A DNA stretch of 64,000 bases from Xestospongia bergquistia (taxonomy: Eukaryota; Porifera; Demospongiae; Haplosclerida; Petrosiidae), in assembly GCA_963965975.1 (NCBI GenBank), contig OZ014423.1:6226301-6290300 (forward strand), read 5' to 3'. Positions 12,916-59,206 of this stretch are shown in pieces. Each line of letters opens with the position of its first letter. The first letter of the stretch is position 1. The position numbers were made by a program, and so were the translations under genes. Under the pieces are notes generated by a model. That model worked only from the letters and a program-made list of their open reading frames with translations. It was not told the DNA's origin and did no database searches.

Positions 12916-13573
12916 TGAGAGGAAAATATAATATCAGAATTTTTCCCACTTTAATGCCTCTCACTTTTGTTAAAATCCTGTTCAAGACAGGTTAAGAATA
13001 CCCATATTTCCGTGTTTGTATACACTTTCTGTGTAGTGTTAGAATCATTAGTATTAATTGTTGTACTATTTAAATAGAGAATGTCTTCTACTTACTACTA
13101 ACACAATGTTTAGTTTTCATTCAGTATCATTTCAGGATTTCTTTTCCCTTTTTTTTAAAAGACTAGTTTAATAATATATATAGTTATCATTGCCATTCAT
13201 CTGTTACTTTTCCCTTTTTCGTCATTGTACTATTCCAGAACTAAGACTGGTCACACACATCATTGTTTACTTCTCTTTATATGTTGTCATTATAACTTAA
13301 GAAAAGGCTCTTTTAATTTTGAAAGTATAATATACATGTTATTTACTGAGTTTGATTAATAGCAAGATTCTTGTATCATAGTTGTTTTAAAAAAATGAGT
13401 TTTAGTCAATCACATCAAATCTCCATGGTGAAACCACAAGTATGCATAATTTGCATAGCTGTGACCCTTCTGAAAACAGGTTTTGTCTGCAGAGGAGGAG
13501 AGTTGAAAAGACCACGTTTTGTACTACAGCAAGCAGTTCTGACTTGCAATCTCCTCCTCTTCCATGACAAAAG
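12916..13573 (+). other. Intergenic stretch between the two Sp genes
   Basis: It holds the AT-rich 3' UTR of the first Sp gene and presumably the promoter and leader of the second. The short ORFs on both strands show no protein features and are taken as chance. Confidence 0.5.
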
Positions 13574-15328
13574 ATGACTATGACTGCTGTGGCTAAAAGT
13601 ACCGATTACTACCCTCAAGGCCAGCCCTCTAGGCAACACAGTGAACAAGGATCTTCACATGCAGTCTCCATGGTAAGTTCTTTTTGCTGCCGTGTATTTG
13701 TTTTGCTATTGCAAGCCATATACGCAAATGTGTCTTTTGCAGAAAAGAACCAAGTCCCTCCTTTCTACTATAACGACCTCCCCTGATTTGTCTTTTTTTC
13801 TTTTTCAATGCAGATCCAACCATCCAGCTCTTTAGAGCTGTTGGCTGCTACTGCAACTTGCAGCAGATTCCATCAAGGGGAGTACAGCAATAATCCTATT
13901 TTAGCTCATGAGAAACTTCAAAAGCTAGGGTCCTACAGTCCCTCGCAGCAGCAGAGTTCTGTGCAACACGGAGAAACTCTCACTCCATCTTTACATTTGA
14001 CAGAAATCTCTGTACATCAACAGCAGCAACCTGGAGGATCTCAAACTATCGCAAATGGCTCTTTCCATATTCAACACGTCCCATCTTCTTCGGGAGCGGT
14101 GACTTATGTTTCCGAGGTAACGTTGAAGCCTAACATATCGACTTCAGGCTACCCGTTCCCATCTCCACCATATTCAGCTCATTTTAATACCAATTTTAAG
14201 AATGTTTTTGCTCCTGATCATGGCAGTGTTGCTGTCTCTTCCAGTTCAGTCGCTAACTATCCACCAGCTTTTTCAGTGGCCACAAATCAACCAATTTCCA
14301 TCTTAGAAACTCAAAAAAGTTACCTGGAAACATTACCTAACAGTCAACCTACCTTTTCCAGCTTTTTCCCAAAACCAGAACCCACTTCTCCTGGATCTTG
14401 TCTCCATACAGTCCCTGCCACAGCTGCTAGCTGGTGGTCCAGTGCTACTCGACCTGCTGGCAGTGCTCCTTGGTCGGCTCCACCACTCCAATCAGCACAA
14501 TCAGCTTTCACATACCCTAATGGAACAGGAAGCTTTCGTCCTCTGTCTCCACTATCACCTCTCTCTCCAATATCTACTCCAGGTACAACTCAACCTTTAC
14601 CACTCTATGCTACTTCAGCAACTCCAGATACTCAGCAATTAAGTCACATGGACGGTTTGCGATGGCCAGCATTAACATATTTTGATCCCTCTCCAGCTCA
14701 ACCCCGTCGCCTGCGTCGTGTAGCATGTACATGTCCTAACTGTGTCAATGGTGTCAATTCAAAAGCTAGCAACTCTGATGGCACTCCAAAGAAAAAGCAG
14801 CACATTTGTCATTATCCTGGCTGCGGAAAAGTGTACGGGAAAACATCGCATCTTCGGGCTCATTTACGCTGGCACACTGGAGAACGACCATTTGTTTGTA
14901 ACTGGTTATTTTGTGGCAAGCGTTTTACTCGATCAGATGAACTCCAGAGACACTTGCGTACTCATACTGGTGAGAAACGTTTTATTTGTCCAGAGTGTAC
15001 AAAACGTTTTATGCGTAGTGATCACCTCAGTAAACATATAAAAACTCACCAAAAATTAAGAGAAAGAGTCAAAGGAGAAGGTAGTAGTCCGCCCATATCA
15101 CCCTCATCCTCTGACACCCGGGATATTGATGCCCCGACACCATCCAGCCTCTGTTCTCCAATTTTAGAGGAGTCCCCTCTTAACGATACCAGTAATGATC
15201 TCTTAGTACCACCAGAACTTCAAGCAACAGCATCCATACATCATCATCATTCTCATCGCCCACCACCACCACCATTGATGCTTCCACCTCCAACAATTTC
15301 AATAATGGGTCCAGCTGCTAAAACCTAG
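13574..15328 (+). CDS. Sp5/Sp6-9-like zinc-finger transcription factor
   Basis: Exon 1 (13574-13672) starts [13 protein letters not shown] and joins in phase 0 to exon 2 (13814-15328). The 141-bp intron ends in TTCAATGCAG; an ATG spanning that acceptor (13808) is not the true start. The protein has an N-terminal Sp box ([15 protein letters not shown]), a long Ser/Pro/Thr-rich region, a Btd box (CTCPNC) and three C2H2 fingers. The finger text [38 protein letters not shown] and [18 protein letters not shown] is characteristic of Sp5-9 rather than Sp1-4. Total about 538 residues. Sp5-9 factors act in Wnt-linked patterning in other animals. A His/Pro-rich tail ends the protein. Confidence 0.9.
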
Positions 15329-40774: not shown

Positions 40775-43130
40775 ATGAAACTGTCCTCTTTTAGAATTAT
40801 AGTGGTGTTATGCAATGTTTTAGTGAGCTGCTATATTTCAGAAGGTATGTTGTAATATCACTTCTATTGTTCAAATGTTTTAATATATATATACATATGC
40901 TATTTGTGCAGGAAACTGCAGGTTCTGTTATGTAGAGCAACCTAAACAATCTATAGATTGCAATCCTTATAAAGTTTCCAATATCACTATATGGTGTATT
41001 ATTGAAAGACCTCTTAAGACATCACTTGAAATACGGTGGTTCTTTTCTTCACAAAATATTAACACAACTCGTATAACTTCAAGTGACACAAGATATACTA
41101 TACAAACTAGAAATAACTCAATTTTGCAACAAAACATTTCAAAACAAACATCTCAACTGTTCATTTCGTCACCACTGACAGAAGGACGTTATTGGTGTGA
41201 AGTTTTCTATAACAACAATGGTCTACAGCGGAGTCAATCTCTAGAAGTTACTGCTGAAGATGACTATGACCGATATTATCCTTGCACTGAGACAATAGCA
41301 ATAGTAGAGCAAATAAAGAAATGTACAGACATTGTAAAAAATAGTGCCTCGACCTGTCCAACTCCACCATCTCCAACATTCATTATTTCTTCTAAACAAA
41401 CTTCTACATTGACATTATCAACTACCAACACCATTAGTAATACAATCATCTCCTTCAAATCTATATCATCTTCTTATATGTCATCAATTCAAGTCAGACC
41501 CACTAATCAAATTGTGTACCAAACAACGACTCCCACAACTGATCCAGCCGGTTTACAAAACAAGGAAGACAACTTTCATTTGTGGCTGTATATAGCGGCT
41601 GGATTGGCTGGGATTTTTGGCATTTTAATAATTATTCTCACAATCATTTGTTTAGCATTATGTCTAATGAGACCAAAGAAATCTATTAACAAATGTACGT
41701 TATTGAATAATGACAATGCGTGGTATGAATAGGTGGTACATGAGAAAATTTGTTACCTTAATTACTATACAAACTAATTACTGACATGCATGTATAATAG
41801 CAGCTGTTACTGTTTGACTGTAGTGGATTAAATTACTTATACAATTCAATGTAATGTTCACTATTGTTTCTATCTCCCTAGATCATATCCGACCAGAACC
41901 ACGTTCTAGAACAGAGTGAGTATTTTAATAATATAATAATATAATATCATTATAGAAATGAGATTAGTAGTGACCATATCAACTATCTTTCCATTAATTA
42001 GTCTCCAGTGAATTAATTACTCATTAATAATTTAATCTGTGTTATGCAGGTCTACAGAATTCAATGACATTTCCTCTCGACCTCAAACATCAATGACAGT
42101 GCATACGGACATAATGATGCCTTCATTTCCTATAGAAGTAAATGATCCTATGTCACTATATGATACATTAGATCAAGATTATGAAGATTTAGATGACAAT
42201 AATAAAAATGATACTGTAACATCTGCTCCACAACCCACTCACCCACGATATCACGACCAAGGTCCTTCAGCAGCAACAGGTGCCTCTGGTCATCCTCCTC
42301 TACAACCAACGTATTCTGAAGTAGGAGAAGCTTCTCCTCCTAAACCACTTAACCAACAACAGCAACAACAACTCTCTATATTTCATCAGATGACTGGGTA
42401 TGGAAAATTAGATCATTCTCGTCCTCGACAAAACTATTACCCAAGAAAAGACTCGCCTTTATTGTCAGGATATCGAAAATTAGAACATGTTACATCTGCT
42501 TTTCGTGCTACTACTTTACCTCATAATCCACAACCAGGCTATGCCAACATTGAGATCCCTGGAGAAATAGGACATTTACGTTCTATCTCTTTACCAAGCA
42601 GTGAATATAGCAATTTGAATCCTTCTCGAGCAAGTAGCAGTCAACCTACCACTCCTGTAAGAGAGCATCCTCAAAGAGGATATGCCAACTTTGAAGTTAT
42701 TGAAGCCTATGACAGTATGGAAGAAATAGATCATTCGCCTTTCCTCAATAGACTGTCTGGTGATTATCATATGTTAGCTGATGCTACTGTCGAACAAGAA
42801 CAGTCAAAGGAATATGAATTTCTTCCAGCTTGTTCCATTGATGAACCAGTTGGTAGTCTTGAAGGGCTTCACCTCTCTTTAGGGAGGGATTTGGATGGAA
42901 GTCGTCTCAATCGGACACTTGCATCTCTTGATCATGGAGAACAACTATCAGTCACCTCCTCTCAGAGCAGTGCTGATTTTACTGGTCCATTTTTCTTTCC
43001 TCACATGGTGGACTTTGGTGAACCTACTAGTCCCAATTCAGATCATCATTTGTACAGGGCTCTTGATTTATCTAAAATGGAGCCAGAAAAAGGTTATGCA
43101 TTGGTTAGTCTTAAAGAGAAACATAAATAA
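40775..43130 (+). CDS. R1: single-pass Ig-domain receptor with many-tyrosine cytoplasmic tail
   Basis: Exons 40775-40844, 40912-41694, 41882-41915 and 42050-43130 join with phases 1, 1 and 2 to give 655 residues. Exon 1 is a signal peptide (MKLSSFRIIVVLCNVLVSC). Exon 2 carries a Cys-rich lead-in (CRFCYVEQP, then CNPYK), an Ig-like domain (WCIIERP, IRWFF, EGRYWCEV), a Ser/Thr stalk and a transmembrane helix (LWLYIAAGLAGIFGILIIIL). Exon 3 is a 34-bp mini-exon. The tail has at least ten Yxx[ILVF] sites, among them YDTLDQDYEDL, YSEV, YGKLDH, YRKLEH, YANI, YSNL, YHML, YEFL and YALV. SGYRKL and SEYSNL fit the ITIM consensus. This suggests SH2-domain signalling from the plasma membrane. No ligand can be inferred. 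Confidence 0.85.
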
Positions 43131-43780
43131 CTTGTATGAATTGTGTTATTGTTTTAGTTTGAACAGTAAAATTATCTTTCTTTGTAAATTTCAACAATGC
43201 ATCAACTACTTTGATAGTAATGTGAAAAAATCTGTTCTCTATAAAAATGTAAATATCAATCTGATATAATTAAAGGTAAATTCATGTGACAGTACAATTT
43301 TTCTATTCTCAGTGTATTCCCTTACAAGCTATAAACATCCTATCAGAATTGTCACTCAGCCATATTAAGGACATTATAATGTTCTCACTATAACTGTGTA
43401 GACAGACTACAGACCGAGAACAAAACTACATAACCAACAGCCCAAGTGATAACATTAGGAATGCCATTAGGGGATATAATGGGATATCAATAGTATGTAT
43501 ATTATAATATATTAGGTCTGTACATGTGTGAATCCCCCAGTCTCTACTTTTTAAGGGATGTGTTTGGTCACATGATCTCTGTATTAATGTTGTATTTGTA
43601 AATAAGGAAAATGGTAAATCTTGACAATGATAATGACATTTAATACTTAAAATAAAAATAATTATTACACAATTATGTAAAAATTTCAATGTACAATTAA
43701 AAATATAATGTAAATATGTATAATTATATATGTAAATTATATATCATTATCTAATTACATATATAACAAATACTATATAT
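43131..43780. other. Convergent intergenic region between R1 and R2
   Basis: About 650 bp of AT-rich DNA between two stop codons. The minus-strand ORF at 43426-43689 has no domain or splice support. It should hold both 3' UTRs. Confidence 0.45.
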
Positions 43781-45623
43781 TCATATTTCATTTAATGAAT
43801 TTAAACTAACAGCAATTGGTAAGTGGTATTGATTTTTCTGATCCATCAACTGAATTACTGGTGGTTGATAAGAATGATCTGTTGGTGATCCAGGTCGATG
43901 GTAAAGTGGTTGATTTTCCAATGTAACTGGAGTTAGAGATTGATAAACCCTGGGTGGTGATGGCCCATGATTAATGTAGAAGTGTTGACTTAAATTTGTA
44001 TTAGGTTCTTGGTCTGGTATTGTCTCAATATTAGCATCTATTTGGACTCTGTTTCGATGTGAATTAAGTAAAGAGTGTGAACGTTTTCCCACCTTAGGAG
44101 GACTATCATTGTTGTTAGATTTGTCAGTGGTTTGCTGTTTGTTATTAACTGGTGGTGATCCCAGATGACATTCTGATGAACCAGTTACAGGACATTTATC
44201 ACAAATATTATCAATGTTAAGATTTACATAAAAAGGTCGGGCAGTTTTATGATGTGCTATTCCTGGAAGAGAATGACTTCTTTTTGGAACTAATGGAAGA
44301 TGAGCTGGTATGGGCGGTCTGACCTGTTGTTGTCTGGTTAGTTGTTCTGCAAGTATTTCATTGTCTTCTCTTTTGAATGGCATTTCTTTATATTCACTTT
44401 GAGATGATGGTTGTCTAGTGACTGAGAGATGAGTTGGTAGGGACTGTTTGCGTTTTGGTAATGGGCAGGGTAGTCTAAGTGAAGGTTCTTGAACTGTTAA
44501 CATTGGAACATCAAGTTGTGTAGTTGTTGGTACTAAATGATAATGCAAACAAACCACAATCAAATTGTTACCTAATTAGTATAACATTGGTTTACTCTTT
44601 TATGGAATAATTAGATTATAGATTACAATAACAGTTTAGGATAATGTACATAATAGTCCATACCTCTAGTAAAGATAGTCCGTTGACTTTCCTGTTGTCT
44701 CCTCTTGGGATTTTTTCTCTGATAATACACACCAACACAAACTGAGATAGACATTATAATAACAATAATAATAAATAATACAGAGATTCCAATAACTGGA
44801 TAACTCCATAATGGTAAAGTCAGAGTGTCCTCCTTCTCCTCCTGTCTTATTGTTAATTCAGATGTAGGAGTTGGATATAGAGAAGTTAGCACTGAATCAG
44901 ATTCCTTACTAGAACTTAATGAACAGTCATTAGTAGGAAATACACACACTGGGTCAGGATAAGAGAAATGTGTATTGATACATGGAGTCTTGTTAGAGTA
45001 TGCACTACGAGGTCGGATGAGAGTCGACAAACAAGGAACTACTTCAATTGTAGATGAGAATATGTTGATACTTGCTTGACACCAATATCGTCCAGTATCA
45101 TTTGAGTTCATACCTCTTAGAGTTAGTCTTGATCTAATAGATGTTGTATAGTTAGTAGATACAATTCTTGAATTTGATATGGACACTCTGTTATCAGTTC
45201 GTCTTCTTAGTCTCATTTGTATTGTATCATTACTTGTTGATATATAATACCAAGATACAAATACTGATACATCATCATTTGGTACAATGATGTTACACTC
45301 TAGTTGAAGATTGTTGAAAGCTGGATGATACGGATCACAGGGCATTTCAGCTGGAGGTTGAGTTACAAAGGTCAACTGACATTGATCTGCATAAAATATA
45401 ATTCAGTTTCAATAATAGTTGTATTCTATTGATATATACTACATTCAGTTGATTTTGGATATCAAACTAATCTCTCAAGAGAGAAACAATCATTGTATAG
45501 TTTATATATGAATACATATACATCATGTACAGTGTATTGTATAATACCTTGACTCCATACTCCATAAGATAGACTTGAAACTACCATTACCAGTGCGAAG
45601 TAGCCTCCACTGTTAAACATCAT
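43781..45623 (-). CDS. R2: Ig-domain receptor on the opposite strand with a divergent tail
   Basis: Exons 45623-45548, 45386-44664 and 44532-43781 give 516 residues; both introns are phase 1, and the mini-exon of its relatives is absent. The start was set at the ATG that opens a signal peptide (MMFNSGGYFALVMVVSSLSYG); the frame stays open a little further upstream. The ectodomain has CQLTFVTQPPAEMPCDPYH, then a clear V-like Ig domain (LQLECNII, VSWYY, MNSNDTGRYWCQA) and a stalk. The helix is VIGISVLFIIIVIIMSISVC. The tail has fewer tyrosine sites (YVNL, YQSL, YKEM, YHLP) and three copies of a basic-Ser motif (KRKQSLP, KRSHSLP, KRSHSLL) resembling sites for basophilic kinases and 14-3-3. It is the only inverted member of the cluster. 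Confidence 0.84.
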
Positions 45624-46090
45624 GTCTTCACTTGTACTGCAACTTCTACTAGTATCACAATGTCTGTCAACTTTAAGATCAGAGAGTAAGTCAAAATATG
45701 AGACCAGTCCAAAAGTTGTGTTACTTATAACTGCCAAAAATATCAGACAATAAACTGAGAAAAGTGATAGGTTATTATATTAAGAGTACAGCTATGTTAG
45801 GTGGGTGTTGGTGTATTTGTCAGATTACTAAGCTCTCTGTAGTGGTATAGGGCAGTGTGAAAGTTGTGCAAACTTTATAATAAATTGTGCCAAAGATTGG
45901 CAATCTCAGTGAAAACCTAGCACTACCTAATTGCATGTAAGGTATCATAAGTAAAGAAACAATGGCTCTTGTTTTGCCAATTCCCAAGACATCACATCTT
46001 TAATTTGTGTTTTTGTTTTGTTAAAATAGAACTTTAAATAAATTAGAAAATTGTTATTATGTCTTGTGTCAGTTTACAGTGTGGCATTAG
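45624..46090. other. Intergenic region upstream of R2 and R3
   Basis: Should contain the R2 promoter. I looked for a signal-peptide exon for R3 here and found none; the short ATG-led frames at about 45964 and 46059 close quickly or run into the minisatellite. Confidence 0.45.
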
Positions 46091-46671
46091 CTCAATATGT
46101 AATGTTAACTCAGTATATAATGTTAACTCAGTATGTAATGTTAATTCAATGTTATGTATTGTTAACTCAATATGTAATGTTAACCCAATATGTAATTTTA
46201 ACTCAATGTTAGTTCAATGTGTATTGTTAACTCAATATGTATTATTAACTCAGTATGTATTGTTAACTCAATATGTATGGTTAACTCAATGTTAGTTCAG
46301 TATGTATTATTAACTCAATATGTATTGTTAACTCAATATGTATTATTAACTCAGTATGTACTCAATATGTATGGTTAACTCAATGTTAGTTCAGTATGTA
46401 TTAACTCAGTATGTATTGTTAACTCAATATGTATTATTAACTCAGTATGTATTATTAACTCAGTATGTATTGTTAACTCAATATGTATGGTTAACTCAAT
46501 GTTAGTTCAGTATGTATTATTAACTCAGTATGTATTGTTAACTCAATATGTATTATTAACTCAGTATGTATTGTTAACTCAATAAGTATTGTTAACTCAA
46601 TATGTATTATTAACTCAGTATGTATTGTTAACTCAATATGTATTGTTAACTCAATGTTAACTCAATATGTT
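46091..46671 (+). repeat. 18-bp minisatellite (GTTAACTCAATATGTAT-type units)
   Basis: About thirty-two imperfect copies of an 18-bp unit, such as CTCAATATGTAATGTTAA, with CAATATG/CAGTATG and ATTGTTA/ATTATTA variants arranged in higher-order blocks. It runs right up to the start of the R3 membrane exon, where the ectodomain exon lies in related genes. One frame is open for 78 codons only because the unit is a multiple of three. Confidence 0.92.
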
Positions 46672-47303
46672 AGATACTAGTGATGACTTTTATAAAGAAC
46701 CAACTTTAACAAATAAAAGTTGGCATGAAGAGAGAGGCAAAGGAAGTGGAATGGAAAATGAAACTGTCAAAACATCCATCTTCCATTCATGGGAAATAGC
46801 CTGTATTGTTGTGGGTGGAGTATTAGGCATGGTCATCATAATTTTAGCCATCATAATTGGAGCTGTATGCTGTCTATGCAGGAAGAGGAGGAGAATCCAA
46901 TCAATTAGTTAGTTAATTAATTTAGCAATCAAATATGGTAATATATAAATGCACAGCTTTCTTAGAAATGTACATTCCACACATAGAAATAAACAACAAC
47001 AATTGTGTTGTCACTACTATAGAAGTACTTGTTGTTTATTTCCTAGGTCATGATGATGTAATTATAAAGTCACATAATAATTCTGGTGCTAGTTATATTA
47101 ATCCATTGGAAATCAATGACCCATCATCACCATGCCAACAAATGGATTATGATAATGAAAAGGAAAATACCTCACATGAAGATGACAACATCTACCAACC
47201 ATTAGTAAATGCCAATAGGGACTATTTGAGCATATATTTCTGCACTTACCTTCCTGAGATTAGAATCAAGGAAGCGTCTAATTCAGTAGATGAACTTAGC
47301 TGA
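46667..47303 (+). CDS. R3: membrane anchor and ITAM-bearing tail, ectodomain lacking (possible decayed gene)
   Basis: The first visible exon (46667 to about 46909) opens at an ATG at the minisatellite edge, with an in-frame stop just upstream. It codes a short Asn-rich juxtamembrane part and a transmembrane helix (IACIVVGGVLGMVIIILAI) followed by CRKRRRIQ. A GTTAGT donor in phase 1 joins exon 2 (47047-47303). The tail is short and has a canonical ITAM, YQPLVNANRDYLSI (47193-47234: YxxL, six residues, YxxI), plus YINP. No signal peptide, C-[ND]-P-Y module or Ig domain is present. It may be a partner chain with a minimal ectodomain, like ITAM adaptors of vertebrates, or a gene whose front was lost to the repeat array. 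Expression data are needed to choose. Confidence 0.5.
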
Positions 47304-47713
47304 CCACAATGTCATTATATCAGACTTCTGTCTTTGACTTTGTATATAGCTTGTGTATATAAAAGTGTGCTGTTTAAAAATAGAGCACTTATAGTTGAGC
47401 AAATTCTTATGAATACATTTATATTATTTGCCAAACATGTGTAGTGCACAAGGTCAAATACGATACAAATTAATGTACTAATTGTAAGTTATTAAATTTA
47501 TTGAAGCTTAATATAATCGTAACACTTAGCAATTAGATAGAAGATATAGACTTATGTTGATTCTAGAATAAACATCATTCCAGACACAACTTTCCCAGTC
47601 AACACCCTTCACAGTTACTAGCAAATAAAAGCCATTGACAAGATTGTAATAACTAGTACTTAACTTGTAATAAGGAAGAAGAGAAGAGACTAGAGATTGT
47701 TGCTGATTTGATT
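47304..47713 (+). other. Intergenic region between R3 and R4
   Basis: About 410 bp, AT-rich; expected to hold the R3 3' end and the R4 promoter. No further feature seen. Confidence 0.4.
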
Positions 47714-49634
47714 ATGAAGACATTGATTTTGTTTATTGCAATAGTCCTATTGCCTCTTATAACAAGTCAAAGTGAGTTATTATATACTATAATAAATCTA
47801 ATATAATTGTATGTCTCTGCTTAATAGCAATTTCTGAATTGTTTGACTATACAAGTACTGAGTTGATTTCTCCTACACCAACTGTCCCAACAGAACCAAA
47901 TTATGATGTACCAACTACATCTAGTACATCTACTAGATTATCAGCAACATTTAAACAAATGACATCTATTACTCCTACTAGATTATCAGCAACATTTAAA
48001 CAAATGACATCTATTACTCCTACTCCTAACAATGATCCTGATAATCGTAATGCCTTCTTAACTTATTTGAAGTATATCTACATTATTGCTGGAGTCATTT
48101 TGTTCTTAGTATTAATAATAATTCTATTATTAGCTGCTATGTGTGTTCTTTGTCAAAGAAGATATAGTGAGGAAAAAGAACAAAAGAGAAAAAAAAAGAA
48201 GAAAGGTGTAAAACCATCTGCATCTCCTTCTATTCTACCTACAATACATGTACAGGCAGCACCATTATCACAACCATCATCTGTGTCTACTTCTCTTCAA
48301 TCTACACCTGTACATATACAGACACCATTGATAGCAAATTCTTCACCTAAGAGGAAAACAGGTCAGTCAATATGTGGGTGGATGATGACCTTACTGGGAA
48401 GAGTAATTATAAAATATTAGACTAAAGCTATTTGTCAACAAACCTTGTATGCTCAGAGTTCGTACATACACAACCTCCACATTGACACACACCTAAATTA
48501 ACAACATTGTTCCTATAGAAACATAGGTTGCAAGGGTATCTTATAAGATATTGTTGATGAATGATATAACTGTATTATGTCTCTGTAGATAATGTGAAAG
48601 GTGGTAATCATGGACACAAAAAAACTCCCGATGAATCAGGGTCAGTATACATTACGTTTTGACTAAGTTATTATATAGATAATGTACAAGTGTATTGTCT
48701 ATACCTAATGATAATAGTTGGCAAGAACTACACCTAGAAACTATTATACTATAAACTATATTGTTATTTTTATAGATCCATGACTGATTTCCCTCTTCTT
48801 TGTCGTGTGCTTCAAGATTATGACTCTGCTCACCACACTGCTCGTATTATGAGGGCTAGCTCCAATGAACTTGAGTCATCTAGTAAAAGTAACGACTCTG
48901 GTATATATCATATGAGGTTTCCAAGTGGGACATCCAGCGATCTTGAAGCTTCTATTGGAAAAAGTACAACAACAAGTTACATATCAAATGATTACGATGA
49001 ACTCGATAATGTATTTGAACTTCTCAAAATGGAAGGGGCCTCTCCACATAAAATACCACCAAAAACTTTGCCTAAACCATCTCGAGCAATGACTGCACCA
49101 CGCAAAAAATTAGGGTCCGTAGAAGAAACAACAGAGCCTATTGACGCATATGGTTATCACATGATTAATATTAGAAAATTGGGCAGTCTTGATCGTAGTG
49201 ATTCAATGAAACGTTCCCAGTCAGCAAATGGCATATTTGATGATCCAAAATATGATAAGTTACCATTAGATTCACCCCTAGATGTTCAACCTCCACATTT
49301 AGTCCAATCTATGCTTACAAAATCTGATAATCCAAAGGACATTGATCCTCGTTCAGCCTTACTTCTTTATAAACCACGTCAATTCCAGGAATATCCACCC
49401 ACAAATGAAAAAAAATCCTCAAGCATGAAGCGATCATACTCTACATCAGCTACATTGGACACTACAGCCTTTGATAAGAGAGATTACAAAGAATATATGA
49501 GCCTACAACAACTGTTAGATTTAGTAAATACCAAATTGACACCAAGTCGAGAAACATCAGCCGATATTGAGGAAGAAGAAGAAGAGCTTTATTGTCCAAG
49601 AGTGGTACGACCTGCTGCCATGGAAATGACCTAA
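47714..49634 (+). CDS. R4: signal peptide, short mucin-like stalk, TM helix and long tyrosine-rich tail
   Basis: Exons 47714-47771, 47828-48361, 48589-48640 and 48776-49634 give 500 residues with the family phases 1, 1, 2. Exon 1 is a signal peptide (MKTLILFIAIVLLPLITSQ). The ectodomain is only about 75 residues, Ser/Thr/Pro-rich, with no Cys and no Ig domain, and includes an exact duplication of TRLSATFKQMTSITP (a 45-bp direct repeat). The helix (YIIAGVILFLVLIIILLLAA) is followed by a poly-basic run (KRKKKKKGVK). Tail sites include YDEL, YHMI, YDKL, YMSL and basic-Ser motifs (MKRSQS, MKRSYS); an acidic run lies near the end. The conserved exon plan makes it a paralogue of the Ig receptors that has lost its Ig domain, or a partner chain. 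Confidence 0.8.
47932..48021 (+). repeat. Two exact 45-bp direct repeats in the R4 stalk
   Basis: Units 47932-47976 and 47977-48021 each code TRLSATFKQMTSITP. The copies are in frame and identical by eye, so the duplication is recent or maintained. Confidence 0.9.
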
Positions 49635-50238
49635 AATCAGATAACAGATGCATGTTATTTTAACAATACATATTGAGTTATCAATTTATGTGCAGTAGAA
49701 TACATTAATTATATAAACTACATGTTTTTACTATGGTCCATTTCTATGTTATTCTAATGATACTTTCAATATTATACTAATTAAAGATAGAAATTATAAG
49801 CAATCTATCTATGGAGTATCTGTTGTCACAACATCAAAATGGCTACCGTCAAACTAATGAGCGTCAGATTACATACATTATACAACTTAGTGTATACAAA
49901 TATACTTTCTATCCATTGGTACTTATATTATGTATTATTTATATAATTACAACTTATTATCAACAGTCATGATATGATAATGTTGCTGCATTTTGAAAAT
50001 AAACAAGTACTGCTTATTTACCTTCTGTTCAACATCTGTGACCACGTAATTTGGTTATAGAAACTATTTATAACCATTAGTGCATCTAGTGTTGTGTATA
50101 ATCAAAACTGAACTAGTGTCAGCAACAGTTGGAGAACTTATATTTGATGACAACTATTGAAGAATACTACCAAGTACTTAAAGAATCAGTCTCTCTTTAT
50201 GCAGTACAGGGTTGTAGTTACAAGAGTCTCCTTAGAAC
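49635..50238 (+). other. Intergenic region between R4 and R5
   Basis: About 600 bp, AT-rich. I searched for a separate signal-peptide exon for R5 and saw no convincing one. It should hold the R5 promoter. Confidence 0.4.
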
Positions 50239-51791
50239 ATGAGTGGAAACTGTGAAACCTGTAATATTTGTAACCTTAGTAATTTTGATAAAACTGTATG
50301 TAATTTGTTCTTTGGGGATGGTAAACCTGGCTTTGTTGCCATAGGCATTATTTCCCTATATTCTATATTGGCTACTGCAGTAATGTTAATTCAATGTGTT
50401 ATAATAATTGCCTGTGGCTTTATCAACTATATCAGTAATAAGAAAAGAAAGTACCGAGTTACTACAAGAGGTCAGTGATACTAGATAGCTAATAAAAATA
50501 AGTGTTAAAAATATGATTATTTTTATGCTACAGATAAAGAACTACCACTTCAAGAAATAAACAGGTATTTACTTATATAAGTTGTAAACATGTTCATATA
50601 TTAGTTATGATTAATTATTGTGTCTTTAAGTTTATAATAATGTAGACACCTCAAACATTAATATTTTATTTATTTAGGGAAATAGATAATGAACTTGACA
50701 ATAAAGGTGGGTATCTTGTTCGTGAAGCACCAGATGATCATCAAATTAGAACTGGAGCAACTGATGCCACATATGATGAGGTTATTGTTGAGAAAAAAAA
50801 CAGCTATTTAGAAGGAACTAAACAAGATCATAAAAAAACACCCTCTGTTGTTGGCCCACCCAGTGTTCCTATAGTTCCACCTCCTCTTGCATCGTCAATA
50901 CCGATGAAAACTGGTCATCAAACTACAACTGGAGCAACTGATGCCACATATGATGAGGTTATTGTCGAGAAAAAAAACAGCTATTTAGAAGGAACTAAAC
51001 AAGATCATAAAAAAACACCCTCCGTTGTTAGCCCACCCAGTGTTCCTACAGTTCCACCTCCTCTTGCATCGTCAATACCGATGAAAACTGGTCATCAAAC
51101 TACAACTGGAGCAACTGATGCCACATATGATGAGGTTATTGTCGAGAAAAAAAACAGCTATTTAGAAGGAACTAAACAAGATCATAAAAAAACACCCTCC
51201 GTTGTTGGCCCACCCAGTGTTCCTACAGTTCCACCTCCTCTTGCATCGTCAATACCGATGAAAAAAGGTCATCAAACTACAACTGGAGCAACTGATGCCA
51301 CATATGATGAGGTTATCACTGAGAAAAAAAACAGCTATTTAGAAGGAACTAAACAAGATCATAAAAAAACACCCTCCGTTGTTAGCCCACCCAGAGTTCC
51401 TATAGTTCCACCTCCTCTTGCATCGTCAATATCTGGTGCAGTTAAAGCCACACCCACTAAGGAAGGACCAGCTGTGTACGCAATTATAAACAAATCCAAC
51501 AAAAGAAAGAATAGGTCATCTATTCATATAGAGTCTCCACCTTCTCCTTTGAATGGATATGAGGACATGGTTCTTAATGAAGCAAAGATACAAGAAAAGA
51601 AACGGCGACGCAATTCAGCATACGAAGATGTAATTAGACTGAGTACTGAGACTGCTGGTGACAGCACATATGACAAACTTGATCATGATGTTTCTGGGAC
51701 TATACCTACACCTCAAACACTACCAATAATTCCTAATTATACAGATAATGTACCTAATGCTTTACCTCAATATGATACAATTAATTTATAG
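50239..51791 (+). CDS. R5: N-terminally anchored membrane protein with four 59-residue tyrosine/proline repeats
   Basis: Exons 50239-50470, 50534-50564 (31 bp) and 50678-51791 give 458 residues with family phases 1 and 2. There is no signal peptide: about 33 residues with five Cys (CETCNIC, CNLF) precede a long helix (FVAIGIISLYSILATAVMLI), followed by SNKKRKYR. By the positive-inside rule the tail is cytoplasmic. It has four near-identical 59-residue repeats, each with TYDEV, SYLEG and a Pro-rich segment (PPSVPTVPPPLAS), suited to SH2 and SH3 binding. Then come YAII, YEDM, SAYEDV, STYDKLDH and a terminal YDTINL. It looks like a membrane-anchored docking scaffold, comparable in layout to transmembrane adaptors such as LAT, although no homology to LAT is claimed. 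Confidence 0.8.
50739..51432 (+). repeat. 177-bp coding tandem repeat, four copies
   Basis: The period is exactly 177 bp (the GATGCCACATATGATGAGG segment recurs at about 50762, 50939, 51116 and 51293). Copies differ at only a few bases, such as GTTGAG, GTCGAG or ACTGAG and GGC or AGC, and the frame is kept. Confidence 0.96.
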
Positions 51792-52169
51792 ACAATATTT
51801 ACATAAATGTACGTACAATGATAGTTTGTTATTGTGTGGTATATCACATTTCTATGTTTGTCTTGTTTAGATTGTAAATATACCTTATTTTAAAATGTTT
51901 GTCTTATAAATTTTGTTATAATGAATCATAGGCCACACCTTACAGATGATGTTGTCTACGTAATACATGTAGGGTTATTCACTTAACTGTTTATAGAATC
52001 ACTTTAGAGACAATGGCATTTATTTATACTATTATGTCTGACACTTTTTATATAAGTTCTTTGTAGATTCTTTTGACTCCTTCAGTAGTGGGCCCAACCA
52101 TTATTTAGTTCAAATCTAAGTTGGCATATTTGCTGTCCGAGAGATTGCTGTGTAGCTGTTGTTGGTACA
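51792..52169 (+). other. Intergenic region between R5 and R6
   Basis: About 380 bp of AT-rich DNA containing the R5 3' UTR and presumably the R6 promoter; nothing else was recognised. Confidence 0.4.
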
Positions 52170-54200
52170 ATGTTTTTGAAGGCCATCATTTTGTTTCATA
52201 TCTTACAGATAATTAGAGGTAACTACTGTAAAATAGAATATATATTTTACCATTTATTGTTATAAACAGGTTCCTTTGTTTATCTTCATGATCCTTCCTC
52301 AATTAAATTAACTTGTAATCCATATGGCCATAAGATTACACTTCCTTGTACACTTGAAGAACCACGTAATCTCTCCTCATCACTATCTCTCTTAGTCTTC
52401 TGGTATTGGTCACCAACAGAGGCAGACCCTTATGTAAATGGTTGTCAGTTATACACTAACTATCAATGTGCACACAATGTTGGAGATAAATATATCTTTA
52501 AATTTGACAGATATTTAAACTCTACTGATTTAGGCAAACTGTTCTATCGTACATTAGATATTACTATAACAAACATTGAAACAATTGATATTGGTTGCTA
52601 TTTTTGTCGTCCTTGGATGAATATGGTACCACTAAATGAGACCAGTGGGGTATTCTGTCTTAAACCTGAGTCAAGTTATCAACAAATGTTGTCTTGCAAA
52701 CATGTTCACAATAAAACCACTTCATTTTCATTATCACCATCTCTTCCTCAAACTCCACCTCCCTTTGATGGCCTTTCTGTTTCTCCATCTTTATCACCCA
52801 CACCTACCATTTAGTAAGCACCCATACTCCATATAAGCACATCCATAATTTACGCCATTATTTTAATATTAGCGATACCAGTCCTGTTGGTAGTATTGAC
52901 ACCAAAAATAATCGATTGGCTTTATGGTTGTATATATGTATAGCATTATGTGTAGTGCAAGCAGTCATTACTATAATGTTAACTGCTGTTATAATCACCT
53001 TCTATCGCAGACGAGCAAAGAATCAGAGAACAGAATCTAATAATACAACCAAAGGTAATGCAAATAGAGTATGTTCCTGCTAATTTTGGTGTATTATGTG
53101 CCAACTAACTGATGCACATGTTTAGCATGTGGGAAAACATTTGTATTATAATATGTTTAGTCTAGTTTACTTTTAGCTCTGACACCCCCACACACAAACA
53201 TTGCACAATAACATCTTGTGATGATATATCCACATTATGTTTATATTAGATAGCGATGCTGCTACACAGGAACATGATAACAGGTAAACCATCATAATGT
53301 CATTTTGTGATTACATTACATCATAATTATAGTTGTATACCTGCTCCTGTCGACAGTCAACTAACTAATACTGACCAGCCACAGTTTATAGGTACTTACT
53401 CACTTGTACGACCTCATGAACATAAAAGGACAGAGTCACCATCAACCATGTCAAAACAACAAACTGACCCTCTGATGTCACATAACGACAATGCACAGAC
53501 AATAGTACAAACCACACCCCCACCTTCTACTCATCCTACCTATGGTACAAGTCATGTTACCACATGTTTGTCTCTTCATGGCAGCCATATTTATCAAACA
53601 CTTGACAAGTACGTAGAAGAACTTGAAGGATTATCATTTTTAGAGGAAGAAGAAGAAGAAGAAGAAGAAAGAACAAGCACTAACAAAGATTCTTATGATC
53701 GTTTATTTGACGACCCAAACTACTCTCCTTTATGTGCCACATACATCTCTCATACTTCAACCTCTGTACCAAGCTCCACCCAGTCAGGTCCTCTTTTACC
53801 TAAAAATGAAGTTATGGAAGTACTTAAATATGACAAATTAGCATCAAAATCAGTTGATACAGATTATTCCTACGCTTATGCTCATATGACAATGAAAAGA
53901 AGAAAAGCTCTTGAGAAAATGGCATCATCAGATACAGCAGTTAATAATAAAATAAGTGAAGAGATATTACGTATTGCTGAATTGGGAACTTATGAAATGG
54001 ATCCAGAGTTTATTACAACACTACAAATGTTTCATGCAAGCCAAGAAGATGTCCCTATAGAAGACACGCCCCCTCTCCCTCCTAAATCTGTAATGAAAAC
54101 AGACAGAAACTCAGGAATGAAGTCATTTAAGAATTGTTATCAATCGTTAGACCAGAATACTCTGATGCCTGACAATAGTTACGCTACATTGACCAAATAA
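52170..54200 (+). CDS. R6: Ig-like receptor with tyrosine-rich tail and C-terminal YATL
   Basis: Exons 52170-52218, 52270-52813, 52873-53054, 53250-53283 (34 bp) and 53333-54200 give 558 residues. The signal peptide is MFLKAIILFHILQIIRG. The lead-in (FVYLHDPSSIKLTCNPYGHK) keeps the CNPY motif but not the first Cys. The Ig-like part has LPCTLEEP, LVFWYW and a variant end, DIGCYFCRP. An extra intron (52814-52872) splits stalk from helix, a difference from the other members. The helix is LWLYICIALCVVQAVITIML. The tail carries YQTL, YDRL, YSPL, LKYDKL (ITIM-like), YAHM, YQSL and a terminal SYATLTK, plus a nine-Glu run. YQSL and YATL are ten residues apart, a loose ITAM. Confidence 0.83.
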
Positions 54201-54499
54201 ATCATATTGCACTTATTAATAAACTTACCCACAAGATCATCATCGTTGAATTATAATATAAACTATTACTATTATAATATACATGTCATGACATAACATC
54301 ACAGAGAACTGTTTACAAATTATGTCACTAAATTACATAAAGTCAGACAATAGTTGGCAGGGAATACTACAACTTACTCTTAGCTTGCCATATATGATGT
54401 TCAGTGGTTTCTAATACCATATACATGCCTGCTGTATAGTACATATAAGATTTGAAACGACTTTAACTCAAATAGTTTAATGTTATTGTAAGTGACACA

Positions 54500-56347
54500 A
54501 TGGCTGTAGTTCAGAGGATTATTTTATTGTTAGTGCTGTTCCAGTTCGCAGAAAAAGTGAAAGGTAGGCATAATATTAGTTACAATTTATTTCAATATAA
54601 CAATAAGTTTCAGTATAGTTATGTCTTTATCATTACTATATCAGGTAATGAATGCCTGCTTAAGTTTTATGAAGAACCTCCAACACAACTTAATTGTGAT
54701 CCTTATCGCAATGATGATGGTGAAGGTGATGATGATGATGATGATGATGAAGAGTGGACACTGAGGTTAGCATGTGAAGTGAGGATACCAGTAGGTTTTG
54801 ATCATGTACAATATGAAGTACGCTGGTTTCAAAGAAACAATGAGAGCAAAATAATAGATCATGGAAGACCAGAAGGGTCTCAGAAAACAGACCTAGTCGA
54901 AAGAATTACATTTGGTTTAGATTGGTATGATCATAAATTCACTACTGCAATGTTAGGAGACTACTGGTGTCAAGCTATGTTAACTGATAGACAACCACTT
55001 GTTAATCTCTCTAAAAGTAATATATTAACAGTGAGAGAACCAGACTACTATGATAGTAGTCTACCAACATGTTCTGGTTTAAAATTTATACATTCAAGAA
55101 GATGTATTACAAATATAACAATATCAACCACTTCATATGATCTTACTCCTTCAATTGTAACAAATATCACAACCTTGTCATCGTCAAGTTCTCTATACAC
55201 ATCAGTAGCACTTCAATCTACACCAGTTATGACATCTTCTGTATCTATGGCAACAAGTAGTCAAGAGATAATAATACCATCACCTACAGCACTTACTCCT
55301 TCTTCTCGTACTCTTAACCAACAAGATATATTATTGCCAATAGCAGTCGGAATAGGTTTTGGTTTACTAATACTGGGTATAGTTATAGTAATAATGTTAG
55401 CAGCCATTTTGTATAAGTGTAAAGAAAGAAAAGGTATGTATGTATTTTAGTGTGTAAATTAACTTTGTTCTTTTATCAGATAATACTCTTTATCCTGGAA
55501 CAGCAACAAAGTAAATAAACTATATATTCTTTGATATTAAGACTTTATGTTTTGGTCATATAATAGGTCATCTACGAGACAACTCTTATTAAATTCATCT
55601 ATAACTCAAGAAACAAACTCTACTTCTTTCACTGCTTCTTATGAACTTTCAATGTCTCCTGATATTCAAAGTCCAGTCTCCAATCAGCCATTGGTAGATG
55701 CCATCTCTCCATTTCAAGAACAGTCTAATGAGTACTCATCAACTTTCACCCAACAAGGAAATCAACCAACATTTAGAAATCATCATTACTCCATTATTAG
55801 ACCTGACTTCACACTACAAAGTAATACTACACCAGCCTTAACCCAAACACAGCCTACATATCAACCACCTCCCATTAAAATGTCAGTCACATCCAACGGG
55901 TATGACTACAGTCAAGTTACAAATCCTCCTCATAAATCAGCCACTACTATACCTGAAGACTATAGCACATTACAGCATTCTCTTTCTCAAACACAACCAG
56001 TGAACCACTACAGCAAACTCAACCATGCAGCAGATCAAGAGGTGGTTAGTACTAGGGATATGTACAGTTCAATAGAACTACATCAAAGTCCACAGTACAA
56101 TACATTGATGACATCTACTGAAATTGAAGAAGATTATAACAACTCAACAAAAGTAACTGCCATTACTCCAAAGATTGGAGAAGGAGAATATTCTGCATTG
56201 AGGTCTCCTGATTATCTTCTGTTGTCATCAGCAACGACCAAACCAAAAGCCAATCTCTCTCACCCAATTAGTCATAAAGTACCAATTCGTCCATCTCCAC
56301 ATTATGAACGAGACCCCAATTATGTACCAATCAAAACGGTACATTAA
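54500..56347 (+). CDS. R7: Ig receptor with a canonical ITAM and many other Yxx[ILV] sites
   Basis: Exons 54500-54563, 54645-55433, 55480-55510 (31 bp) and 55567-56347 give 554 residues with phases 1, 1, 2. The signal peptide is MAVVQRIILLLVLFQFAEKVKG. The ectodomain begins CLLKFYEEPPTQLNCDPYR, then an acidic run of Asp, then an Ig-like domain (LRLACEVRI, YEVRWFQR, LGDYWCQA) and a Ser/Thr stalk. The helix is LLPIAVGIGFGLLILGIVIV. The tail has YSII, YSQV, YSTL, YSKLNH, YSAL, YLLL and the pair YSSIELHQSPQYNTL (56063-56107), which fits YxxI-x7-YxxL, a canonical ITAM. It ends YERDPNYVPIKTVH. R7 is closest to R8. An activating, SH2-kinase-coupled role is inferred from motif spacing only. Confidence 0.86.
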
Positions 56348-56664
56348 AATTTGAGTTATTATGAACTATGATAACAAAAAAATTTTGTTCATTTTCATTT
56401 TTAAAATATTTCTAAATATTGTTCAGTTTGTTTACTGGTTATATTGTAGAACAATTACTTCTGTAACATCAAATGATCAAATGCCTCTCTTGGCAACTAC
56501 CCTTGCAAACACAATCCATTTATGTCAGATAACTTGTTGTGTCTGTAAACTTATTATTGGCTTCTGTCAATCCACATATTATTATAAATAATAATGCTAA
56601 TTTGTTATACTGAACAGTAATAAGAGAGAGAGAGCAAGAAGATATTCTAAATACTAGCAACATT
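56348..56664 (+). other. Intergenic region between R7 and R8
   Basis: About 320 bp. A 76-codon plus-strand frame (56361-56591) lacks any recognisable domain or splice partner and is treated as chance. Confidence 0.4.
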
Positions 56665-59206
56665 ATGAAGACTAAAGAATTTGTACTAATAACTGCATCT
56701 TTATTACTACTGACTGCAGAGAGAATACAAGGTAAGATAACTAAATCAGTGTGTGAGAGTGTGTTAATTATTGTAGTCTTTGTTTTGTAGCTCAATGCAA
56801 TACTTTCCAGTTTATAGAGCAGCCACCAACAAATTTGCCATGTAATCCATTTGATACTAAAGTACCTACTCCAGTGTGGCGTCTCACAACAGTCTGTGAA
56901 GCTCAAAAACTAAGTGGATCGCAGACTTTTGATATACATTGGTTTCATAGAAAAACAAATGGAGAAATTGAAGATCTCATGAGACCAGAAATCTGGACAA
57001 ATAGTGACACTCTTGAAACAGTCTATTTTGGTAACAATTGGATTAATCAACAATACAATACAGACATGTTAGGAGAATACTGGTGTCAAATAAAAGTGAC
57101 CAGTGAACAACCGAATATCTATTTAGGTATTAGTAATGTGTTTACAATAGATCCACCTGAATCATATACAGCACCTCGATGTTCTCAAATAATACGAGTG
57201 TCTGAGACACTTTGTGCTGATATGGCACCAACAACATCCACTTCTCTTCCTTTATTACCAATTGTTTCCACTCCAACAATTAGTAGTACATCATCTCCTA
57301 TTGTAGAGCTAACTACAACTATAACATCAACACCAACAATCAGCTCAAACATAGAGCCTCAAATTTCCTCATTGCCTACAAGTACATTGCCTTCTATTGG
57401 AAACTCCTCACAAAATATTATTTCTACAAGAACTATCTCGTCATCAATCAAAATCTTTTCTACATCAATGAATGTTGAGACAATGCTACCTCCTACTATC
57501 TTGCCCACTTCTTCAAGTATTATAAAAGTTCCATCAAATACAATGATAACATCTTTAAACCAAATGACATCAATTTTAGTAGCCACAACATTACCAATAT
57601 TTACACCCCAGCTATCATCCAACACTCAACAGTCATCTCTTGTTTCTATGACAACAATGTTACAAGATGGACCAATACTTCCCCACTCATCAACACCAAT
57701 GATATCTTCAATGAAACCTTCTTCTACTCATGCTCTGGTACCTTCAAGGACACCACAGGGAAATGAAAGACATAATGATGAATCACAGTTACTGTTAACA
57801 GCATCCATAGCGGCTATCGTTATGCTATTGTTGATAATAATTCTCCTTATAGTTATTGTTATATTAGTTTATGTCAAACCACGAAAAAAAAGAGTAGGTG
57901 AGTCTAATGTTGATGTTGCTAAGTATACAATTAACACACTTACTTAATATATAATGTAAACAGCATCATATGCAAGTGTCTGTTGTGGTAAAGGGTGTAG
58001 TCTAATGTTGTAATACAAATTGTGTAATAACTTGCATCCACTCATGATTATTTCATCCTCTTAGAAAGACAATACTATTACCACCAATTAATACATTACA
58101 CCACCTACAGTAATAGTCACAACATTGCAACAGGACGCTAACACACACATCATCATATAAGGAATAATATTTAAATATATTACATAACACATTATAATAT
58201 ATTTTTATATACATGTATTATGGGTTCTTTTTGTAATAGTTGTTCGTAGTGAAGATGGTCAGTTTTTTCAATTGTCATCAATCAGGTAAGTACATGTACA
58301 TATATACATACTGATATATAGAGTCTTTCTCCATGTAACCATGGGTTTACTAAAATAACAACAAGCAACTATGTTACTATTTTTAGTGTTACTATTTTTA
58401 GGCTATAGTAAGGGACCTATTAATTATATAATCTTGATTAGTGGTCCCTGTATTATATATAAATGTTAAATGATCTTTGCTGGTTTTCTACTCTCAGATC
58501 TCGACGTCACCTCTTAGATACAAGTGGAAGCTCCACCCACAGTGCAGTCAGTGCAATACAGCCTAGTATGGCTTCTATGAATAAACCAGACCAACCAATT
58601 AATCATCGTTATTCAACAATTAGTACACATTTTAATGATTATGAGCCACACCCTCCAGTAGTTGCCACCACCTCTCATGGTTCTCATATCTATGATGATA
58701 TGGACATTGATTGTTATGCTATGCCCACAACCAGTAAACAACAAGTAGTGAAACCTCTGCCACCAACAACCACACCTCCTCCATTAGGGGAAGGACATCA
58801 TTATCCCAGCATGTATGATGAATATGAAGTAACTCCTCCCCCAGGACATGGATCTGCTAGTAGACAAGATACTACTTTGTTTCCTCCTCAATATAATAAA
58901 TTAGATCATAGCAATGGAATTATGGGATCAGGTGAAATTAAACAAGAAATTTTAAGTAGCAATGAAAGAGGAATGTTAGAGCTAAGAGAGTATGCAAAGT
59001 TAAATGCTGATAAATTACAAAGTCCAACACAAAAAGAAAATCACTTGACAACAAAAATGTCTCAAAAATTTGCTGCTAAAGTTCCTATGATGCCACCAAA
59101 TATAAAGAAAGGAAAAAGAGAAGGGACAGAAAAAGACAAAGATACTTGGAATTATGAACGTAATCCAACCTACATGTTACCACCTCCTGGACTACATTTT
59201 ATCTAA
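56665..59206 (+). CDS. R8: Ig receptor with long Ser/Thr stalk and tyrosine/proline tail
   Basis: Exons 56665-56731, 56791-57897, 58240-58285 (46 bp) and 58498-59206 give 642 residues with the family phases 1, 1, 2. The signal peptide is MKTKEFVLITASLLLLTAERIQ. The ectodomain reads CNTFQFIEQPPTNLPCNPFD, then an Ig-like domain (LTTVCEAQK, FDIHWFHR, LGEYWCQI) and the longest stalk of the cluster, about 200 residues rich in Ser, Thr and Pro (mucin-like). The helix is LLTASIAAIVMLLLIIILLI. Tail sites include YSTI, YDDM (a possible PI3K p85 site), YEVT, YNKLDH and YAKL, with Pro-rich runs, and the tail ends with YERNPTYMLPP. NPTY fits the NPxY form bound by PTB domains. It lies tail to tail with the peptide transporter gene. 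Confidence 0.86.

Follow-up and report, generated by a model that had tools for sequence, protein, structure and literature searches.

Eight receptor genes in one cluster

The window considered here is a stretch of 64,000 nucleotides from the sponge Xestospongia bergquistia (C13:6226301-6290300, in a genome of 146.46 Mb on 21 contigs, to which our numbers C1, C12, C13 and so on refer). It contains a cluster of eight genes, R1 to R8, that we call cluster A (40775-59206) and that, judging from their sequences, probably encode germline, paired-receptor-like immunoglobulin (Ig) receptors for immune or self recognition. The eight models were made by hand, use GT-AG splices and have zero internal stops; seven of them lie on the plus strand, R2 alone is inverted, and no unrelated gene was seen between them (open frames of at least 60 amino acids, judged by reading only). 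An earlier, sequence-only reading of this DNA had proposed just such an arrangement, with eight genes, no unrelated gene inside and one inverted member, and on this point we agree with it.

The same reading had singled out five Ig-type members with a common architecture. Indeed, R1, R2, R6, R7 and R8 each carry a hydrophobic start, a C[ND]P[YF] motif, a B-strand cysteine, a C-strand tryptophan, Y[WF]C, a Ser/Thr-rich stalk, a helix and a tail (signal peptides were judged by eye as hydrophobic starts, without a prediction program, and helices by hydropathy). The low identity between copies that had been remarked upon is also real, the five ectodomains being 16-34% identical. As for the other three genes, which were said to keep only anchor and tail, this description suits R3, which consists of helix and tail, and has to be amended for R4, where a hydrophobic start is followed by a Ser/Thr stalk, and for R5, which has a short Cys-rich start (neither R3 nor R5 has a hydrophobic start of the signal type). 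The minisatellite directly upstream of R3 is possibly the mark of a lost upstream exon.

The exon plan of the five Ig-type genes is a signal exon, a single exon that encodes the Ig module together with stalk and helix, and a tail exon, with an additional stalk intron in R6 that splits the second of these (the last acceptor of R6 is one of two candidates). Intron phases recur in the cluster: phase 1 follows both the signal exon and the helix, and phase 2 follows a mini-exon, the latter being present in R1, R4, R5, R6, R7 and R8 and missing from R2 and R3.

A V-type ectodomain with relatives in other clusters

Our ectodomain alignment has 22 rows from four clusters, and in all 22 ectodomain exons read there is one Ig module per exon. 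C17 (that of C[ND]P), C35, W50, G94 and C98 are invariant in 22/22, and C2, P11, N18, P19, Y96, Q99 and C141 are conserved in at least 90% of the rows. The core is thus a V-type C..W..YxC, preceded by two cysteines and, in most rows, followed by two more; the first cysteine is missing in R6 and in one row of cluster C. When single R proteins are compared with Pfam, PF00047 passes its cut-off for R2 only (8.2e-5), R6 stays short of it with V-set (1.4e-4), and nothing of Ig type is found for R1, R7 and R8 at E<=0.01 (V-set_CD47 gives 0.32 for R1); over the 22 ectodomains PF00047 matches 11/22 at this threshold, as does V-set. The 22-row profile matches 879 distinct PDB sequences at E<=1, and the best 60 of these 879 all bear the names of Ig proteins, among them antibody chains, T-cell receptors, JAML and a natural killer receptor. 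The top match is an antibody light chain, at 6.4e-8 for the whole chain and 0.037 and 0.045 for its two domains taken singly, and the next is JAML (4.7e-6). On these profile comparisons, we assign the ectodomain of the R family to the immunoglobulin superfamily, and to its V type; the receptors are single-pass proteins with one such module.

The sequence-only reading had held that a lack of related genes outside this locus, combined with a lack of expression, would tell against it. Such genes exist, and the family occupies at least four clusters: besides cluster A, clusters B and C lie on C13, cluster D on C12, and one further copy on C1 (Table 1). Searches of the genome with ectodomains gave 10 places for R8, 18 for R1, 49 for R2 (the weaker ones being general Ig matches) and 25 for a C12 composite, and the R2 ectodomain matches the C12 family at 3.7e-9. 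The 25 places found with the composite comprise the 10 intact genes of cluster D, the C1 copy, R1 and R2, eight copies with stops and four partial ones, and it is because of these eight broken and four partial copies that we think of gene birth and death in the family. Clusters A, B and C, together with three genes that combine Ig and TIR domains, all lie within the last 1.12 Mb of C13. By reading, B4 and D10 keep both junction phases of cluster A, and D9 the second.

Ectodomains and tails as separate modules

R7 and B4 (C13:5382426-5383280) lie 0.9 Mb apart, and their ectodomains are identical at 85% of amino acids; in DNA they are 90.7% identical over 485 bp, a stretch that takes in the Ig module in full, 5 bp ahead of it and 12 bp of stalk, with no further match of at least 60 bp at E<=1e-4 in stalk, helix or tail (60 bp being the shortest match that our pairwise DNA comparison reports). 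R8 and B3 behave in a similar way, with ectodomains 63% identical in amino acids and DNA 75.8% identical over 434 bp, in the module only, the remainder being unmatched. When B3 and B4 are compared, pieces of the helix (74.7% over 87 bp) and of the tail (75.8% over 99 bp) are alike, and the module is less so (67.0% over 176 bp). Since R7-B4 and R8-B3 match in the module only, and B3-B4 in helix and tail, one ectodomain is found on both a cluster-A tail and a cluster-B tail.

The R7-B4 module has a synonymous distance (dS) of 0.144 and a nonsynonymous distance (dN) of 0.079, hence a dN/dS of 0.55; for the R8-B3 ectodomain this ratio is 0.39. At a dS of 0.144, the introns and tails of an equally old whole-gene duplicate should still align, and we therefore infer that the R7-B4 module was copied or exchanged, either by gene conversion or by duplication with exon exchange.

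In cluster D, ten intact genes with related ectodomains carry five short and five long tails, the two classes being interspersed. The short tails (D10, D8, D5, D4 and D2) have the form NTAYGL...PSDYLxVYD, with three tyrosines, or four in D2. Among the long ones, D9, D7 and D6 each have two strict immunoreceptor tyrosine-based inhibitory motifs (ITIMs), located in the last tail exon (shuffle test, p 0.016-0.025; for D7 and D9 the test covered the last tail exon without the earlier one), and D3 and D1 have proline-rich tails, with one ITIM in D1 (p 0.14) and a D3 tail whose sequence is incomplete in the DNA examined. D9, with ITIMs, and D10, with a short tail, are adjacent, have ectodomains 94% identical in amino acids and are sisters in the ectodomain tree (support 99/99); D7, with ITIMs, and D8, short, are likewise adjacent, 83% identical and sisters (support 90/88, not starred). 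Inside the D9-D10 and D7-D8 pairs the 5' part, the module and part of the stalk are alike in DNA (86.1% over 870 bp, 93.2% over 983 bp), and helix and tail are unmatched. Comparisons within a class, D10-D8 and D9-D7, do match in helix and tail (81.2% over 680 bp, 85.3% over 1259 bp), and their ectodomain parts are less alike (80.5% over 840 bp, 79.2% over 961 bp). On starred branches of the ectodomain tree the long-tail label changes at least three times and the short-tail label twice, and neither label is clustered beyond shuffles. Cluster D therefore has two of the features by which paired receptors are recognised, namely alike ectodomains on different tails in neighbouring genes (D9-D10, D7-D8) and an ITIM-bearing partner (D6, D7, D9). 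Taken together, these alignments indicate that ectodomain and putative signalling tail evolve as separate modules, alike recognition domains being carried on different tails.

Tyrosine motifs of the tails

The number of Yxx[ILV] sites is 11 in the tail of R1, 2 in R2, 2 in R3, 4 in R4, 8 in R5, 7 in R6, 9 in R7 and 3 in R8, so that the range of 4-10 given earlier for the Ig-type tails is too high for R2 and R8 and too low for R1. The tails of R1, R5, R6 and R7 are enriched against shuffles (p<=0.009), and those of R2, R3, R4 and R8 show no excess (p 0.16-0.54); on account of the latter four, we rejected a richness in tyrosine motifs common to every tail. The sites of R5 come largely from a 177-bp repeat, present 3.9 times at window positions 50738-51431 (96%), which gives four 59-residue repeats each with YDEV and which, as we read it, is a recent growth of tyrosine sites. 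R1 has three strict ITIMs (p 0.029 against shuffles) and is the sole enriched tail of cluster A by this measure; its tail has no relatives in the genome, finding only itself at E<=0.1.

The motif Y.KL[DEN]H, which was picked post hoc, after the tails had been inspected, occurs five times (twice in R1, and in R5, R7 and R8) where shuffles lead one to expect 0.004. The shorter Y.KL occurs eight times in 6/8 tails against 0.44 expected, and the R4 tail has YDKL. We take a motif of the Y.KL type to be the mark of the cluster-A tail. The tails of B2-B5 have tyrosine blocks in a common order (EPYYxxV, DPDNPxYQxL, NYxSIYDxxN, HxYxAINP, VYTSL), not every block being present in each; a search with the B3 tail finds four places at E<=0.5, which are B2-B5, all in cluster B, and does not find B1. 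Between the R3 and B5 tails 32 columns are alike (E 7e-6 in a single comparison). No kinase domain was seen in R1-R8, and 0/14 of the TIR matches in the genome fall in the window.

Putative signalling partners and surroundings

Profile searches of the genome gave 81 places for SH2 and 194 for the tyrosine phosphatase domain PTP. Among the matches listed, SH2-SH2-PTP occur in this order at nine places, assigned by position: C7:8318067-8319560, C3:916188-917681, an array on the minus strand of C3 (1265457-1283528), with six places in tandem, one of them with a stop, and, in pieces, C6:199640-201523. Four of these SHP-like open reading frames (L064-L067) were read, and each has two SH2 domains with an FLVR-like arginine and HCSxGIGRTG; L064 is the orthologue of SHP-2 (5e-196 against PTPN11). 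Vertebrates have two SHP phosphatases, and in this sponge the SHP-like ones look expanded to nine places, six of which form one tandem array. A Syk-like SH2-SH2-kinase gene was read at about C5:8491.2-8494.5 kb, with a first SH2 domain that matches ZAP-70 at 4e-38, and L063 reads as a Src-type SH2-kinase frame. In other systems, motifs of the ITIM type are read by SH2 enzymes of these kinds. Because such enzymes serve many receptors, the SHP-like and Syk-like genes allow, but do not prove, the mechanism discussed below.

Several other arrays were met in these searches. On the minus strand of C6 (1622265-1697212) ten SH2 matches form an array, their open frames being some 400-500 amino acids long; one of these (L068, partly read) resembles a Src-type SH2-kinase. 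Large arrays of tyrosine phosphatase exons, perhaps receptor-type, lie at C9:1993085-2150236 and C5:438649-784372, with no SH2 matches nearby, and large arrays of Ig-type exons at C7:985501-1345181 and C5:1.7-3.3 Mb (at least 150 scored Ig_3 matches). The three Ig-TIR receptor genes are at C13:5860106, 5862369 and 6409328 (TIR by profile, Ig exons and helix by reading); according to a paper on Dysidea (PMC12909245), the TIR domain of sponges is accompanied by an extracellular Ig domain, and the three genes agree with a sponge as the source. Peptidase_C1, considered with a view to silicatein as a sponge marker, has 76 matches, and among the 14 inspected (eight loci and six short stretches) there are 10 active sites of the Cys type, 0 of the Ser type and 4 cases without a readable site (L048, L055, L057, L072).

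Cluster A itself is flanked on the left by a phosphodiesterase-like exon near 36.6-37.0 kb and on the right by a minus-strand gene that resembles a peptide transporter (by reading, in both cases). Elsewhere in the window, again by reading, two adjoining Sp/KLF-type zinc-finger genes are followed by a gene like that of a dynein heavy chain (11086-15328 and about 23-34 kb).

Table 1. Receptor genes and associated features (window positions, unless a contig is given)
Feature	Position	Strand	Description
R1	40775..43130	+	exons 40775-40844, 40912-41694, 41882-41915, 42050-43130; 655 aa; hydrophobic start, Ig module, stalk, helix, tail
R2	43781..45623	-	exons 45548-45623, 44664-45386, 43781-44532; 516 aa; hydrophobic start, Ig module, stalk, helix, tail
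Minisatellite	46087..46655	.	18 bp, ~33 copies; directly upstream of R3
R3	46667..47303	+	exons 46667-46907, 47047-47303; 165 aa; helix plus tail; signal exon not found; start codon uncertain
R4	47714..49634	+	exons 47714-47771, 47828-48361, 48589-48640, 48776-49634; 500 aa; without Ig module; hydrophobic start, then Ser/Thr stalk, helix and tail
R5	50239..51791	+	exons 50239-50470, 50534-50564, 50678-51791; 458 aa; short Cys-rich start, helix, repeat-bearing tail
R6	52170..54200	+	exons 52170-52218, 52270-52813, 52873-53054, 53250-53283, 53357-54200; 550 aa; hydrophobic start, Ig module, stalk, helix, tail
R7	54500..56347	+	exons 54500-54563, 54645-55433, 55480-55510, 55567-56347; 554 aa; hydrophobic start, Ig module, stalk, helix, tail
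R7 module common to B4	54642..55123	+	begins 5 bp before first module codon used, ends 12 bp past last
R8	56665..59206	+	exons 56665-56731, 56791-57897, 58240-58285, 58498-59206; 642 aa; hydrophobic start, Ig module, long stalk, helix, tail
Cluster B	C13:5375257-5386043		five genes, B1-B5
Cluster C	C13:5897674-5901106		at least two genes
Cluster D	C12:5876976-5907784		ten intact ectodomain exons, D1-D10
C1 copy	C1		one full-length ectodomain

Discussion

If these genes are indeed paired-receptor-like, the Ig module would bind a ligand and a Src-type kinase would then phosphorylate tyrosines of the tail. The ITIM tails of D6, D7 and D9 would recruit SHP-like phosphatases and so damp the response, and the short tails of cluster D, like the tyrosine-rich tails of clusters A and B, might recruit other SH2 proteins that promote or tune it. 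Copying of ectodomains would keep partners of differing output matched to one ligand, and the likeliest job of the whole would be to tell, at the cell surface, self or microbe apart from non-self. We also suggest, more tentatively, that this may be a sponge paired-receptor system in a fuller sense, in which germline clusters of V-type Ig genes have one module moved by gene conversion among ITIM, short and multi-tyrosine tails, to be read by an expanded SHP-like set and a Syk-like kinase, the last megabase of C13 with its Ig-TIR genes being an immune complex. The logic of inhibitory and activating Ig receptors would then reach down to one of the earliest-branching animal groups.

The comparison with paired receptors had been drawn by the sequence-only reading from the window, and it has to be shifted: it gains from what lies outside (two tail classes on C12, ectodomain-only identity between clusters A and B, the SHP-like and Syk-like genes), and there is no pair within the window itself, where the R7 and R8 ectodomains are only 34% alike and the eight genes have diverged. 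A number of other results also speak against a paired-receptor interpretation, and should be acknowledged together. D4 and D5 are near relatives (85%) of the same, short class; D6, in spite of its ITIMs, has no close partner (74% at best); D1 and D2 are of opposite classes and 87% alike, with a fork that the tree leaves without resolution, and D3 is in the same position; altogether 11/19 inner branches of the ectodomain tree are open. No charged helix residue and no immunoreceptor tyrosine-based activation motif (ITAM) is found in the short-tail genes D10, D8, D5, D4 and D2, and because the helix is uncharged and the tail without ITAM, these genes do not qualify as activating partners of the classical kind. 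The test for strict ITIMs also covered B1-B4, D1 and a 28-residue piece of the C1 gene, where it shows no enrichment, and we rejected such motifs as a family-defining trait, most tails not being enriched. The R6 ectodomain has no relative in the genome, finding itself alone at E<=1. Finally, identity restricted to the module could alternatively come from duplication followed by loss of similarity in fast stalks, which is unlikely for introns and tails given the dS of 0.144.

Selection on the ectodomains belongs to the same side of the balance. For four sister pairs of cluster D the dN/dS is 0.80 (0.52-1.27), and no stretch excludes 1: the ratios are raised at residues 1-46 (1.39) and 68-88 (1.91), with intervals that include 1, so that significant diversifying selection was rejected. 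Over all 45 pairs of D genes, residues 109-140 are below 1 (0.56, 0.37-0.86). These ratios point to weak constraint over much of the module in cluster D, and not to proven diversification. Converted exons of Siglec-11/16 likewise show relaxed constraint (PMC5701461).

A strict allorecognition function, in which each Ig module would bind its like on another cell and so decide between fusion and rejection, as proposed for Hydractinia Alr, seems to us rather unlikely. Clusters, ectodomain copying and a V-type domain with a tyrosine tail are all compatible with it, ITIM/ITAM-type motifs are reported for candidate allorecognition genes of Hydractinia and Botryllus (PMC12065747), and residues 68-88 are the most variable of five stretches in cluster D; however, dN/dS is not significantly above 1, and all sequences come from a single assembly. 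Less likely still, in our opinion, are adhesion or patterning receptors whose Ig modules would serve cell-cell adhesion in reaggregation or growth, with tails that tune cytoskeleton and proliferation and no part in immunity or the distinction of self from non-self. The review PMC11999971 treats sponge Ig proteins chiefly as adhesion molecules, and long Ser/Thr stalks would be compatible with this, but near-copies, broken copies and ectodomains moved between tails are unexpected for conserved adhesion genes, and the joining of related ectodomains to tails of two classes speaks for outputs that differ.

One could go further and regard all these genes as fast-duplicating membrane genes, largely non-functional or lineage-specific (gamete proteins, for example), with tyrosine motifs that are incidental. 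The broken copies of cluster D might be quoted in this sense, as might the fact that shuffles often equal the Yxx[ILV] counts of R2, R3, R4 and R8. We nevertheless consider it very improbable, for all eight models of the window are open across 165-655 amino acids, ordered tyrosine motifs are kept in the cluster-B tails and Y.KL[DEN]H in 4/8 cluster-A tails, and the dN/dS values of R7-B4 and R8-B3 given above are 0.55 and 0.39. We thus return to paired-receptor-like Ig receptors as the explanation that we favour. A sponge family with a similar signalling logic and modular tails would provide named genes for typing across individuals, for expression studies and for testing. It also raises the question of whether pairs of inhibitory and activating Ig receptors have one origin or several.

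Comparison with known systems

The sequence-only reading knew of no described sponge system of this form, and we too found no described sponge family of the R1-R8 form among the entries listed in searches of the open-licence literature, subscription papers being mostly outside the scope of the search. Among the systems that come closest, the paired Ig receptors of vertebrates (Siglec-11/16, CEACAM, CD300, KIR, LILR and SIRP, for example) are encoded by clustered genes. They have in common with the sponge genes a near-identical ectodomain on an inhibitory and on another tail, and ectodomains kept alike by gene conversion, as described for Siglec-11/16 (PMC5701461). They differ in that the short-tail partners of the sponge lack a charged helix residue or ITAM, that some sponge genes have no partner, and that the sponge module consists of a single V-type Ig domain, with C[ND]P and additional cysteines, the role of the ITIMs being predicted. 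In layout, so far as sequence goes, the sponge family resembles paired receptors; it lacks the classical activating partner, and its membership of any vertebrate family is not shown.

The Alr proteins of Hydractinia have Ig-like domains in tandem, unlike the sponge genes, which carry one Ig module (Alr was compared by description only). The likeness lies in a large Ig family in one complex, of 41 genes according to PMC11999971, and in ITIM/ITAM-type motifs, noted in PMC12065747. The fester co-receptors (FcoR) of Botryllus, as summarised in the latter source, are similarly Ig receptors of one locus with long tails bearing ITIM, hemITAM or core Yxx[ILV]; their ectodomain, however, is made of a V-Ig, a sushi and two C2-Ig domains (PMC12065747), where the sponge has a single Ig module and no sushi was seen.

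Nearer to home, the sponge Ig-TIR receptors share with the R family an Ig ectodomain, one helix and the same region of C13, and differ, by reading, in having several Ig exons and a TIR domain in place of the tyrosine tail. In Geodia cydonium there are an Ig adhesion molecule and an Ig receptor kinase. These proteins, compared by description, also place Ig-like domains on the sponge cell surface, whereas no kinase domain accompanies them in R1-R8. The Geodia Ig adhesion molecule is named in PMC11999971. According to a 2025 review (PMC12065747), sponges, cnidarians and ascidians do not have conserved candidate allorecognition proteins in common, and the candidates of cnidarians and ascidians converge on signalling of the ITIM/ITAM type.

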